NCBI GenBank assembly: GCA_947632285.1
Contig: CANROT010000004.1
Coordinates: forward strand, 1 to 37,130
Direction of reading: 5' to 3'
DNA from: an uncultured Clostridia bacterium
Lineage (GTDB): Bacteria; Bacillota; Clostridia; Oscillospirales; CAG-272
Length of the DNA stretch: 37,130 nt
Below, in pieces: positions 20,655-33,039 of this stretch. The notes beneath the pieces are model-generated. The model had not been told where the DNA came from. It searched no databases and saw only the letters and a program-made list of their open reading frames with translations. The translations under genes were made by a program, and so were the position numbers. Every line of letters begins with the position of its first letter. The first letter of the stretch is position 1.

Positions 20655-20685
20655 CAAAAAACGCCCGCCGGTGGAGGCGGGCGTT
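20655..20685 (-). terminator. Rho-independent terminator of the preQ1-controlled operon
   Basis: aacgcccgcc (20660-20669) pairs with ggcgggcgtt (20676-20685) around a 6-nt loop; on the minus strand TTTTTGCGC follows. It lies directly after the DUF4298 gene. Confidence 0.85.
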
Positions 20686-20688
20686 CTT

Positions 20689-20976
20689 TCACTCGTGAAA
20701 TAGCTCAAAAACCGTTTCTTTTACGGCGGCGACGGAGGCGAGAAGATCGAATACCGAGTCCTCGGAGAGGACGCCGCGCTCAAGGTCGGGCGGAAAAAGG
20801 CCCGCCGCGTCGTCTGCGGCGTCGGTGAGCCAGTCCGTTTCGTAATACGCGCGCAGCGCCTCGATCTCCGGGAGCGCGGCCCTGTATCCTTCGAGCGCGG
20901 CCTCGAGCGCACAGACGGCGGAGGCGGCGCTTTTGAGATAGTTTTCGTTTCGCTTTACGCGGTCGATGTCGATCAT
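20689..20976 (-). CDS. DUF4298 family protein
   Basis: The 95-residue protein begins at MIDIDRVKRNENYL (ATG at 20976); longer readings run into the SDR gene without support. It fits DUF4298: a helical N-terminal half, then LRAYYETDWLTDAADDAAG, LERGVLSEDSVFDLL and a final helix. Function is unknown. It is the third gene of the preQ1-riboswitch operon, 5 bp after the SDR gene, so a role connected with queuosine precursor use is suggested by position only. Confidence 0.8.
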   Translation of the reverse strand: MIDIDRVKRNENYLKSAASAVCALEAALEGYRAALPEIEALRAYYETDWLTDAADDAAGLFPPDLERGVLSEDSVFDLLASVAAVKETVFELFHE

Positions 20977-20981
20977 ATCGG

Positions 20982-21629
20982 TCACCACACGAAATTCGAT
21001 TTTGCGGCCTCGCCGTTGTCGACGAGCAGGTCCTGCGCCGTCATCGATTTGTTTGTGACGGTGAGAAAATATGCCCAGTCGGCTATCTCGCACGGCTCCG
21101 CCCACTTCGGCAGGAGCGTTTCCGCCATGATGCGCTCCCACAGCGCGGGATCGCGCATGACGCGGTCGTTCAGGCTCGTGCGGACGCCGCCGGGGGAGAG
21201 GCTGTTCGCCGTCGCTCCGTATTCGGCGACGCGCAGCGCCGTATTTTTCATATAGGCGACAACGCCGCCCTTGCTCGCCGCGTATTCGGGGAACTCCGCG
21301 CCGGTCGAGGCGCTCGCGGACGCGATAAAGAGGATACTTTTTATCCCGGCGCGTATGCCGTATTTCTCCGTGACGCGGATCGTCCCCTTCAGGTTGACGT
21401 CGATGTCGCGCCCGGAATTTTGCACCCCGGCGTTATTGATGAGGATATCGACGCCGTCTATGTCGGGCAGCGCGTCCGAATAAATATCGGCGGTATAGTG
21501 CGTGTATGCTGGACTTGAAACGGCGCCTGTGCAGACGTCGATGCCGATGACGGTGTGCCCCTCGCTCAGAAATTTTTCCGCTATGGCGGCGCCGATACCG
21601 CCGCTCGCGCCGGTTATAAGGACCTTCAT
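20982..21629 (-). CDS. Short-chain dehydrogenase/reductase (SDR)
   Basis: The 215-residue protein starts at the ATG at 21629, which overlaps the transporter stop as ATGA and has a ggaagg ribosome site. Classical SDR motifs are TGASGGIG (NAD(P) binding, residues 7-14), INNAG and the catalytic pair in YAASK, with Ser in FIASASAS. Acidic D31 after the second strand (GIDVC) favours NAD(H). It is smaller than usual SDRs (about 250). The substrate is not evident. Its place behind a preQ1 riboswitch, coupled to a queuosine-precursor transporter, makes a deazapurine or queuine-related reaction possible, but that is inference. Confidence 0.8.
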   Translation of the reverse strand: MKVLITGASGGIGAAIAEKFLSEGHTVIGIDVCTGAVSSPAYTHYTADIYSDALPDIDGVDILINNAGVQNSGRDIDVNLKGTIRVTEKYGIRAGIKSILFIASASASTGAEFPEYAASKGGVVAYMKNTALRVAEYGATANSLSPGGVRTSLNDRVMRDPALWERIMAETLLPKWAEPCEIADWAYFLTVTNKSMTAQDLLVDNGEAAKSNFVW

Positions 21630-22366
21630 TCCCGTGCCTTCCGTATGTATTCGAAGTATTCTCTGCCGACGTCCGCCTCGCGCCATCTCTTGCACGTCAC
21701 GTACCCGAGGCGCGAGAAGGCGACCTCGCATAAAAGCTCGGCGACCATGCCCGTGGCGGCGCACGTCACGCACTGGGTCAGCGTCCAGTCGAAGAAGACG
21801 TGGCTGACGATCAGCGCGAAGACGATGTTGTCCGCGAACTGACCGACGGCGGTCGAAATATATGTCCTGCACGCGTAGGCGAGAAAGCCGTCCTTGCGGA
21901 AGAGCTTTCCGACCGCGTAGTTCAGAGTGTTGTTGATGACGGCGGAAACGATGAACGCCGTCGTGCTGCCGAGCAGCACATACCACGTGCCGCCGAAGGT
22001 GCGGTCGAGCGCCGTGTTGATGACGGCCTCGGAACCCTCGACATACGATTCGCCCCACACGCCCGGGATCAGGCTCGCGAGGAAGAAAAAGAGCGCGACC
22101 AAAAGGTTGACGGCGGCGGCGAGCAGCGAGAGCTCCGTCGCGGCCTTCGGGCCGAAGTGCTTTGTGAGAATGTCCATCGACAGAAACGCGACCCACGAAA
22201 CGATAATGCCGCAGTCGAGGGCGAGCCAGTCAAAGGGCAGGGTGACGCTCTTGTTCGCGAGCAGATTCATCGCGATGAGAGAGATGACGAAAAGCGAGGT
22301 GAGAAGAGCCGGAGTTGAGCGCAGAAGAAGCCCGAACTCCCGCATCTCCCGTTTGATGCGGGACAT
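21626..22366 (-). CDS. yhhQ: YhhQ/VUT-family queuosine precursor transporter
   Basis: From the ATG at 22366 (MSRIKREMREFG) the protein has 246 residues and about six membrane helices. NLLANKSVTL, DILTKHFGPKAA, INNTLNYAVG and the intramembrane-type YISTAVGQFADNIVF are typical of the PF02592 (VUT/YhhQ) family, whose E. coli member imports preQ0/preQ1-type precursors. A preQ1-I riboswitch lies immediately upstream with the ribosome site built into its pseudoknot, independently supporting this substrate. The queuosine biosynthesis genes proper are not in the window. Confidence 0.9.
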   Translation of the reverse strand: MSRIKREMREFGLLLRSTPALLTSLFVISLIAMNLLANKSVTLPFDWLALDCGIIVSWVAFLSMDILTKHFGPKAATELSLLAAAVNLLVALFFFLASLIPGVWGESYVEGSEAVINTALDRTFGGTWYVLLGSTTAFIVSAVINNTLNYAVGKLFRKDGFLAYACRTYISTAVGQFADNIVFALIVSHVFFDWTLTQCVTCAATGMVAELLCEVAFSRLGYVTCKRWREADVGREYFEYIRKARE

Positions 22367-22375
22367 GGATTTGTA

Positions 22376-22418
22376 CCTTCCTTGTTTTTTATTTAAGATG
22401 GTTATCAAGAAACATCTT
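22376..22418 (-). promoter_or_regulatory. PreQ1-I riboswitch (translational) upstream of the YhhQ-type transporter
   Basis: Read on the minus strand: P1 AAGATG (22418-22413), loop UUU, P2 strand CUUG, loop AUAAC, P1 strand CAUCUU (22400-22395), A-rich linker AAAUAAAAAA, and P2 strand CAAG (22384-22381). CUUG pairs perfectly with CAAG, so the H-type pseudoknot of preQ1-I aptamers can form. The loop Cys-position C directly before the P1 3' strand, and the tail AAAACAAGG, match the known class layout (compare the Thermoanaerobacter form). The ribosome site AAGGAAGG (22383-22376) overlaps the P2 3' strand, so ligand binding should block translation of the ATG at 22366. A possible -10 TATAAT lies at 22449-22444. 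Confidence 0.85.
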
Positions 22419-22444: not shown

Positions 22445-23185
22445 TTATATCCAGCCAAAAGCGAACTGCCTTATGATGCCGAGACATTCGCGGACCGCGT
22501 TCGGGATCAAGAGATAGATCGGCGATGCGCCGTGTATATGAGAGGCGGCGATGCCCGCGGCGCGCGCGTGCAGCTCGGCGCGGGCGACGTGATAATCGCT
22601 CGTGACGATGGCGGCGCGCCAGTCGGCTCCGAGCCGGCCGTCGAGCAGTTCTTTTGAGTAAATGCAGTTTTCGCGCGTGCTCGTCGAGGCCGATTCTTCG
22701 ATCATTATATCCTCGGGCACGCCCTTTGAGAGCAGGTATTTTTTCATCGCCCGGCATTCGGCGACCGCCTCGTCTTCCCCCTGCCCGCCGCTGAGAACGA
22801 TGACGGCACCGGGGTTTTCGGCGTGATACCGCAAGGCGGCGTCGAGGCGGCACTTGAGCTGCACGCCGACCTCCTCGCCGCGCAGACCGCAGCCGAGGAC
22901 GATGACGGCGTCCTCATCGTATGTCGCGGTGTCGACGCTGCCGTAAATGACGAGCGCCGAGAGCGCCGATATGCCGATGACGGTGACGGCGGCAAACGCG
23001 CGCGGCACCCACCGGGGCATATGCGGGGCAAGCCGTCCCGAGCACGCGCCCGCAAGTATGAAGACGGCGGCGAGCACGTATGTAACGATGACGCCGGAGT
23101 GCGTCTTCGACGTGAGCGACGACGCGCACGCGGAGGCGGCGAATACCGCGCCAAGCGCGATATAGATATACCCTGTTTTTTTCAT
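22445..23185 (-). CDS. YdcF/SanA-family (DUF218) membrane protein
   Basis: The 246-residue protein has two to three N-terminal membrane helices (about 5-24, 33-48 and 62-84) and a DUF218 domain with DAVIVLGCGLRGEEVG, VLSGGQGEDE, EESASTSTREN and TSDYHVARA. These match YdcF/SanA/ElyC proteins, thought to act in cell-envelope precursor metabolism at the outer membrane face; the reaction is unknown. The ATG at 23185 has no ribosome site and lies only 6 nt after a TATAAT -10 element, so its mRNA is predicted to be leaderless. Confidence 0.85.
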   Translation of the reverse strand: MKKTGYIYIALGAVFAASACASSLTSKTHSGVIVTYVLAAVFILAGACSGRLAPHMPRWVPRAFAAVTVIGISALSALVIYGSVDTATYDEDAVIVLGCGLRGEEVGVQLKCRLDAALRYHAENPGAVIVLSGGQGEDEAVAECRAMKKYLLSKGVPEDIMIEESASTSTRENCIYSKELLDGRLGADWRAAIVTSDYHVARAELHARAAGIAASHIHGASPIYLLIPNAVRECLGIIRQFAFGWI

Positions 23186-32915: not shown

Positions 32916-32934
32916 AAAAGAAAATCGCTTACAG

Positions 32935-33030
32935 CAAAACTCCCTACGTTGGCATTGCCCAAATCAGGTGATCGGGTCCGGCGGAACACTATCCGCCGTC
33001 TCAGCCGCCTTGCGGCAGCGCCCCTGTTTT
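32935..33030 (-). promoter_or_regulatory. TPP riboswitch (THI element) controlling the thiamine operon
   Basis: On the minus strand the aptamer shows the conserved blocks in order: GGGGCGCUGCC, GGCUGAGA, an optional P3a hairpin (GGCGGAUAGUGUUCCGCC), GGACCC, ACCUGAU, GGGCAAUGCC and ACGUAGGGAG. These match the TPP-binding class. The predicted transcription start is only a few bases before it, and a terminator follows, so TPP should stop transcription before thiW. This is the only regulatory element strong enough to control all seven downstream genes. The whole 33184-32695 interval between genes is thus leader, promoter and terminator. Confidence 0.95.
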
Positions 33031-33039
33031 CCGCCTTGT

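Follow-up and report, generated by a model that had tools for sequence, protein, structure and literature searches.

A preQ1-I-like leader ahead of a YhhQ–SDR gene pair in uncultured Clostridia, a candidate unit for queuosine salvage

Introduction

What would an SDR enzyme and a DUF4298 protein have to do with queuosine precursors? The question is raised by a locus in a 37,130-nucleotide contig stretch from an uncultured Clostridia bacterium (the whole stretch analysed here, called the window), in which a sequence-only reading had placed a preQ1-I riboswitch ahead of genes for a YhhQ-type transporter, an SDR and a DUF4298 protein, and had tied both of the latter to the use of queuosine precursors. 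The answer we favour, with a confidence just short of even, is that a preQ1-I-like leader stands over a YhhQ–SDR pair in which YhhQ imports a precursor and the SDR converts it, most likely queuine, to preQ1.

Table 1. Features of the locus, in window positions.
Feature	Positions	Strand	Basis
preQ1-I-like aptamer	22380..22418	-	sequence; type II/III features: U-rich L1, AC preceding the P1 3′ strand, Shine-Dalgarno within the P2 3′ strand
P1 5′ strand AAGAUG	22413..22418	-	sequence; covariation in relatives
P1 3′ strand CAUCUU	22395..22400	-	sequence; covariation in relatives
P2 5′ strand CUUG	22406..22409	-	sequence; invariant in the relatives chosen
P2 3′ strand CAAG, overlaps the ribosome site	22381..22384	-	sequence
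C22401, counterpart of the preQ1-specificity cytosine, directly 5′ of the P1 3′ strand	22401	-	assigned by anatomy; position as described in PMC11625349
Shine-Dalgarno AAGGAAGG	22376..22383	-	sequence; 9 nt ahead of the YhhQ ATG at 22366
YhhQ/QPTR-family transporter, 246 aa, divergent subfamily	21626..22366	-	PF02592 79.5 bits, cut-off 27.2
Classical SDR, 215 aa, YhhQ partner	20982..21629	-	PF13561 78 bits; model pLDDT 95.5
DUF4298 protein, 95 aa, passenger	20689..20976	-	PF14131 57.1 bits
Intrinsic-terminator-like stem with T run	20662..20679	-	sequence

A preQ1-I-like pseudoknot overlaps the YhhQ ribosome site

Read on the reverse strand from 22418 to 22380, the leader runs AAGAUG-UUU-CUUG-AUAAC-CAUCUU-(A-rich)-CAAGG. 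The earlier description of a pseudoknot with a 6-bp P1 and a 4-bp P2 (CUUG/CAAG), whose 3′ strand runs into the ribosome site (Table 1), is borne out by direct reading of the sequence. This is the H-type arrangement of preQ1-I elements, in which the evidence for P1 is covariation and that for P2 is complementarity alone. An AC before the 3′ strand of P1 is described as the rule for preQ1-I types II and III (PMC11625349), and AAC is found both in the window and in the model-found elements of genomes G111 and G115 (below); in the counts of window-type leaders this specificity cytosine was a letter demanded by the regular expression used. The single-strand fold of the element is not exceptional (z -0.37) in a program that does not treat pseudoknots.

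Searches with the Rfam PreQ1 family, proposed as a check by the sequence-only reading, gave a divided outcome. At the gathering cut-off no PreQ1 match was found in the window; RF00522 does pick out the element, as the best of three matches in the 2.2-Mb genome, but at 18 bits (E 0.39) it stays under the cut-off of 39. None of 20 loci with the second leader type (type B, below) reaches that cut-off, and no PreQ1 match was listed for 29 relatives in two scans, one at E up to 0.5 and one at E up to 10. However, the same RF00522 search reported nothing on the yhhQ leader of Escherichia coli K-12 even at E up to 10. The preQ1-I type III switch, for which a co-crystal structure is reported, is the type that regulates E. 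coli yhhQ (PMC10622847), and by our own reading the sequence AUUGGGUUCCCUCACCCCAAUGGUUAAUCAAAAAGG ahead of that gene fits the published switch. The low RF00522 score here therefore says little.

We built a model, R1, from the leaders of relatives. It finds the window element as its sole match in the window at 65.6 bits, the window sequence being a member of the training set, and it misses the E. coli yhhQ leader, so that R1 is specific to this lineage. Over 146 related genomes R1 matched 14 at E < 1e-3. Thirteen of these matches lie before YhhQ–SDR (8 supplied training sequences, 3 are identical in their core and only those of G011 and G035 are new), and the remaining one, in G111, lies directly upstream of QueT in a genome that lacks the pair (E 5e-9, outside the training set; RF00522 21 bits). 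Seven further genomes (G115, G092, G103, G128, G014, G098 and G031) matched at E 0.005–0.05, and we looked at the neighbourhoods of the match in G115, G092 and G103. In G115 the element again lies upstream of QueT (E 0.008, outside the training set) and has a wholly different P1, GCUGUG/CACAGC; in G092 and G103 no queuosine gene was seen near the match. In 80 loci of a second collection of contigs, 14 matched R1 at E ≤ 0.01, 9 of them training loci; every match is on the YhhQ strand and just upstream of YhhQ.

By our reading a preQ1-I-like element occurs in 88 of 104 leaders: 39 of type A, the window type, 46 of type B, with the core GACAGUUCGnnACCAUCCUGUC...AAACAAAACUA, and three variants of type B (L030, L032 and L059) scored by eye. 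These counts are raw with respect to duplicates and kinship (L077/L008 and L127/L010 are apparently the same loci), and L079 was omitted as too short. The other 16 leaders have no element by this reading; for one of them, that of L119, an exact match to type B lies farther out, about 480 nt upstream of the YhhQ match. P1 covaries in type A leaders, with seven double-change cells over three of the six pairs and a covariation score that none of 500 shuffles reached; the sample is the 17 of 31 type A leaders with a 3-nt L1, variable L1 length misaligning P1 in the full set. P2 has no such support, since it is invariant in the 17 leaders and its letters were demanded by the regular expression. Type B leaders also precede QueT in the QueT–QueF units of G049 and G123 (L217 687–722, forward strand, and L216 1847–1882, reverse strand; RF00522 17.8 and 27.2 bits). 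Both leader types thus also serve known queuosine genes where there is no pair, as QueT follows them in G111, G115, G049 and G123.

The leader could in principle be a chance pseudoknot, with the pair controlled in some other way. The scores below the Rfam cut-off in the window and in all 20 type B loci, the blank scans of the 29 relatives, the unvarying P2 and the 16 leaders without an element all fit such a reading. Against it stand the covariation of P1, the QueT-linked matches of G111 and, less strongly, G115, neither of them a training sequence, and the equal silence of RF00522 on the E. coli leader, and we find it scarcely credible. That the element is a real preQ1-I-like leader, with preQ1 sensing predicted, is well supported by these comparisons of sequence.

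The SDR, not DUF4298, travels with YhhQ

The gene layout is as the sequence-only reading had it: YhhQ and SDR overlap by a 4-nt ATGA, the SDR and DUF4298 genes are 5 nt apart, and one terminator-like stem follows. The window YhhQ scores 35.5 bits against TIGR00697, the YhhQ equivalog, whose cut-off is 50.95, and we therefore treat it as a divergent subfamily rather than filing it as that equivalog.

A YhhQ search (E ≤ 1e-8) matched 33 of 146 related genomes and an SDR search (E ≤ 1e-30) matched 32. In each of these 32 the SDR adjoins a gene of the YhhQ family (30 loci, L004–L033, together with G076 and G088). The partner in G088 is a canonical YhhQ that the first YhhQ search had missed. PF02592 exceeds its cut-off in 42 of the 146 genomes, 32 of them with the low-scoring window subfamily (31 with the SDR, and G015 without) and 10 with canonical YhhQ, of which only that of G088 comes with the SDR. 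The second collection holds at least 503 loci with a relative of the SDR. Among the best 80, which we examined, YhhQ lies beside or near the SDR in 77, and in 74 it is a window-type YhhQ directly upstream. A canonical YhhQ lies directly downstream of the SDR in L128 and L134 (that of L128 is cut by the contig end and scores 28.3 bits against PF02592; that of L134 resembles it), and in L131 one lies 1.5 kb downstream, past a gene on the opposite strand. The SDR thus partners two subfamilies of YhhQ, in either gene order. No YhhQ was seen within the stretch examined in L106, L122 and L142 (3 of the 80) or in G286.

The two proteins are also found as one. Searched with the window YhhQ and SDR joined end to end, the database returned four proteins that span both (P0121–P0124; 466–491 aa, 51–57% identity, 98–100% cover) and match both PF02592 and PF13561. 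P0124 has a linker of about 40 residues and no methionine at the junction; P0121–P0123 keep a methionine there, so that for these three an artefact of read-through or frameshift is less firmly excluded.

DUF4298, by contrast with the SDR, follows in 3 of 107 loci (L004–L006), those of the window's own genome and of two others of the same genus, and was not found in the 80 loci of the second collection; we therefore regard it as a passenger. The SDR half of the earlier claim about queuosine-precursor use holds, through the pairing with YhhQ, the fusions and the mutual exclusion with QueT described below, and the DUF4298 half is not supported; likewise, when homologues elsewhere are asked for a link to queuosine genes, the SDR has one and DUF4298 does not. 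That the two act together in precursor use, for which their shared predicted operon and terminator in the window would speak, is with this distribution highly improbable.

Among 398 genomes spanning the phylum only the window's own genome and G286 carry the SDR, which suggests a family restricted for the most part to this order and neighbouring ones. The SDR-bearing records (the best 80 of at least 503) are mostly from uncultured Clostridia and include one isolate, Pumilibacter muris. A protein search with the SDR scored 7999 candidates, 6476 of them at E ≤ 1e-25, and none of the best 120 of those 6476 has a name more specific than 'SDR family oxidoreductase' or 3-oxoacyl-ACP reductase. In G286 (L166 3889–9054) no YhhQ is in view, and the SDR has as neighbours a nucleoside hydrolase, two S-type proteins of ECF transporters and a radical SAM gene of TIGR04100. 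We considered this neighbourhood as an equivalent of queK–qrtT–queL and dropped it, since the search reported no preQ1 leader at the locus and the gene families found are generic or unproved.

Genomes with the pair lack QueF and QueT

The remainder of the queuosine pathway was compared between the 31 genomes that carry a window-type YhhQ with the SDR (pair genomes) and the 115 without the pair, counting matches at the default search E, a few of which lie below the Pfam cut-off. Tgt and QueA are each present in 31 of 31 pair genomes and QueG or QueH in 28, whereas QueF and QueT are present in none. The corresponding figures without the pair are 106 for Tgt, 108 for QueA, 102 for QueG or QueH, 9 for QueF and 93 for QueT. 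In tests that ignore kinship, the QueT contrast (0/31 versus 93/115) has p 9e-18 and the QueF contrast p 0.2. Conversely, the SDR at E ≤ 1e-30 is found in none of the 93 QueT genomes. A QueF gene was not found in the window's own genome. We rejected reduction of epoxyqueuosine as the job of the SDR, since 28 of the 31 pair genomes already have QueG or QueH.

The Tgt proteins carry the motif GLAVGE, presumably the preQ1-type motif, in 29 of the 30 pair genomes fetched (the split Tgt of G005 was left out), with GLAVRE in G063, and in 10 of 10 other genomes. In Bartonella, V220 of Tgt is described as likely to hinder queuine (PMC11570991), and we take this residue to correspond to the valine of the motif. 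Given the motif, pair cells probably need free preQ1, and given the absence of QueF, the known route to it from preQ0 would be closed to them.

QueF adjoins QueT in G049, G096 and G123, and in G030 (L215 980–2153) it is followed directly by a canonical YhhQ. Since QueF, a preQ0 reductase, holds the slot beside the transporter in G030, G049 and G123, preQ0 is also possible as the imported base. The QueT proteins of G049, G123 and G096, all adjoining QueF, have the three lowest best-per-genome QueT scores and are perhaps a preQ0-importing subgroup.

The SDR is a probable NAD-dependent alcohol dehydrogenase

The window protein shows the TGxxxGIG and N-S-YxxxK motifs and the Rossmann fold of a classical SDR, and its structure model (Table 1) matches classical SDRs, the best matches including galactitol dehydrogenase, FabG-type and EntA-type enzymes. 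These neighbours are generic and tied in fold score, so the fold search does not discriminate between substrates. Among NCBIfam models 183 families match the SDR, and the 25 matches listed are all below cut-off. Invariant in 90 SDRs are N79, S104, Y116 and K120, the glycine motif, D31, Y42, H44, E112-F113-P114 and W176. In the model D31 closes strand 2, which would favour NAD. We infer that the SDR is an alcohol dehydrogenase that oxidises its substrate.

These features bear on whether the pair might instead import preQ0, with the SDR reducing it to preQ1 in place of QueF. QueF is missing from all 31 pair genomes, the layout of a transporter beside a reductase occurs here in G049, G096, G123 and G030, and a greater efficiency for preQ0 is described for the YhhQ of E. 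coli (PMC5372724). Yet QueF is equally missing from 106 of the 115 genomes without the pair. Moreover, QueF works through a cysteine thioimide, whereas no cysteine is invariant among the 90 SDRs, and we know of no SDR that is a nitrile reductase. The QueF T-fold domain (PF14489) is absent from the SDR by domain search. The predicted preference of D31 for NAD also sits poorly with the use of NADPH described for QueF (PMC5372724). Altogether we judge the replacement of QueF by the SDR to be improbable.

A possible route from queuine to preQ1

Queuine has a ring cis-diol next to the C–N bond to preQ1. If YhhQ imports a queuosine precursor, probably queuine, the SDR would convert the imported base to preQ1: NAD+-dependent oxidation of one ring hydroxyl of the cyclopentenediol may make the neighbouring C–N bond labile, and its cleavage would release the amine preQ1 for Tgt. 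High preQ1 would then switch the module off, preQ1 binding to the leader being predicted to block the ribosome site. Import of queuine by a YhhQ is on record in Chlamydia (PMC11570991), as is conversion of queuine to preQ1 by QueL (PMC11477304). The link of the SDR to queuosine salvage, and a salvage role for switch and pair, are well supported; conversion of the imported base by the SDR is likely; and queuine would be the most likely of several substrates. We propose only tentatively, with less confidence than for the pair as a whole, a third bacterial route of queuine salvage, in which the enzymes of a widespread SDR family would be queuine dehydrogenases, freeing preQ1 through C–N cleavage of a redox-assisted kind, beside or fused to a queuine-importing YhhQ and under preQ1-I control.

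A simpler possibility is that YhhQ imports preQ1 itself and that the SDR is an accessory, removing a by-product or acting on another substrate, and dispensable for making preQ1. The necessity of the pair is indeed called into question by G015, in which a window-type YhhQ follows a preQ1-like leader with neither SDR nor QueF, so that this YhhQ may be useful alone; six genomes, moreover, have a canonical YhhQ without QueF, SDR or QueT. However, the near-fixed pairing, the gene overlap, the partnership with two YhhQ subfamilies and the fusions suggest that the SDR acts directly on the imported compound, and the exclusion of the SDR from all 93 QueT genomes points the same way. An accessory SDR is therefore, to our mind, unlikely, if less so than one that reduces preQ0.

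Conversion of the imported base by the SDR would resemble the Clostridioides difficile unit in which a preQ1-I switch precedes queK–qrtT–queL, described as joining a preQ1 switch, a transporter and an enzyme by which an imported base is turned into preQ1 (PMC11477304). Here, however, the transporter is of the YhhQ family rather than the ECF protein QrtT, an SDR takes the place of the lyase QueL, and the unit has no nucleoside hydrolase. The radical-SAM domain of QueL is absent from the SDR, which matches only NAD(P)-type Rossmann families, and the likeness to QueL is one of role only. With the E. coli type III switch over yhhQ the leader shares the hiding of the YhhQ ribosome site by a preQ1-I switch, which is predicted here, and the AC before the 3′ strand of P1 (PMC10622847, PMC11625349); it differs in its 4-bp P2 (CUUG/CAAG), its longer loop and its divergent YhhQ subfamily, and the annotated neighbours of E. 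coli yhhQ include no SDR. The QueT–QueF units of G049 and G123 likewise join a transporter to a reductase, behind the second leader type of this family, but there the transporter is the ECF protein QueT rather than YhhQ, and the enzyme is T-fold QueF rather than the SDR. NAD-dependent diol SDRs (EntA-type, galactitol dehydrogenase) have the same fold and catalytic N-S-Y-K; the SDR here is shorter (215 aa), and fold scores do not separate the classical SDRs listed.

An exchange of queuosine precursors is described for the gut, most species of the large intestine having no queDECF and depending on salvage (PMC11130926). For a step at import the pair points to a specific family of enzymes, so far unstudied, and it offers an explanation of how queuosine tRNA could still be made in genomes without QueT and QueF. 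We found no description of this SDR in PMC12506659, PMC11888242 and PMC11130926, or in the titles and starts of abstracts that otherwise represent the queuosine, queuine and preQ1 literature on YhhQ or dehydrogenases. As two genes, or one fused gene, the pair is a construct directly testable in an E. coli queuosine auxotroph.

Other features of the leaders and the window

The leader sequences suggest attenuation for type B and translational control in the window; many type B leaders continue into a GC stem and a T run, and by eye the 5′ side of this stem could pair with the aptamer. In several type A leaders (L073, L078, L105, L112, L114 and similar) P1 and the 3′ tail appear by eye to be separated by an insertion of one or two hairpins, about 50 nt at most. 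The leaders of L030, L032, L059 and L168, from four genomes of two families, share a variant in which the core, CGGAGUUCGGCCUCUAAAUCCUCCG, is near-identical and the tail is AAAACCAAGGAG; in L168, the locus of G015, this variant stands ahead of the YhhQ that lacks an SDR. In the window, a TATAAT at 22449–22444 on the reverse strand closely precedes the switch; it overlaps the end of a DUF218 gene and has no good -35 element. Elsewhere in the window, a TPP riboswitch at 32924–33035 on the reverse strand scores 64.5 bits, above the Rfam cut-off.
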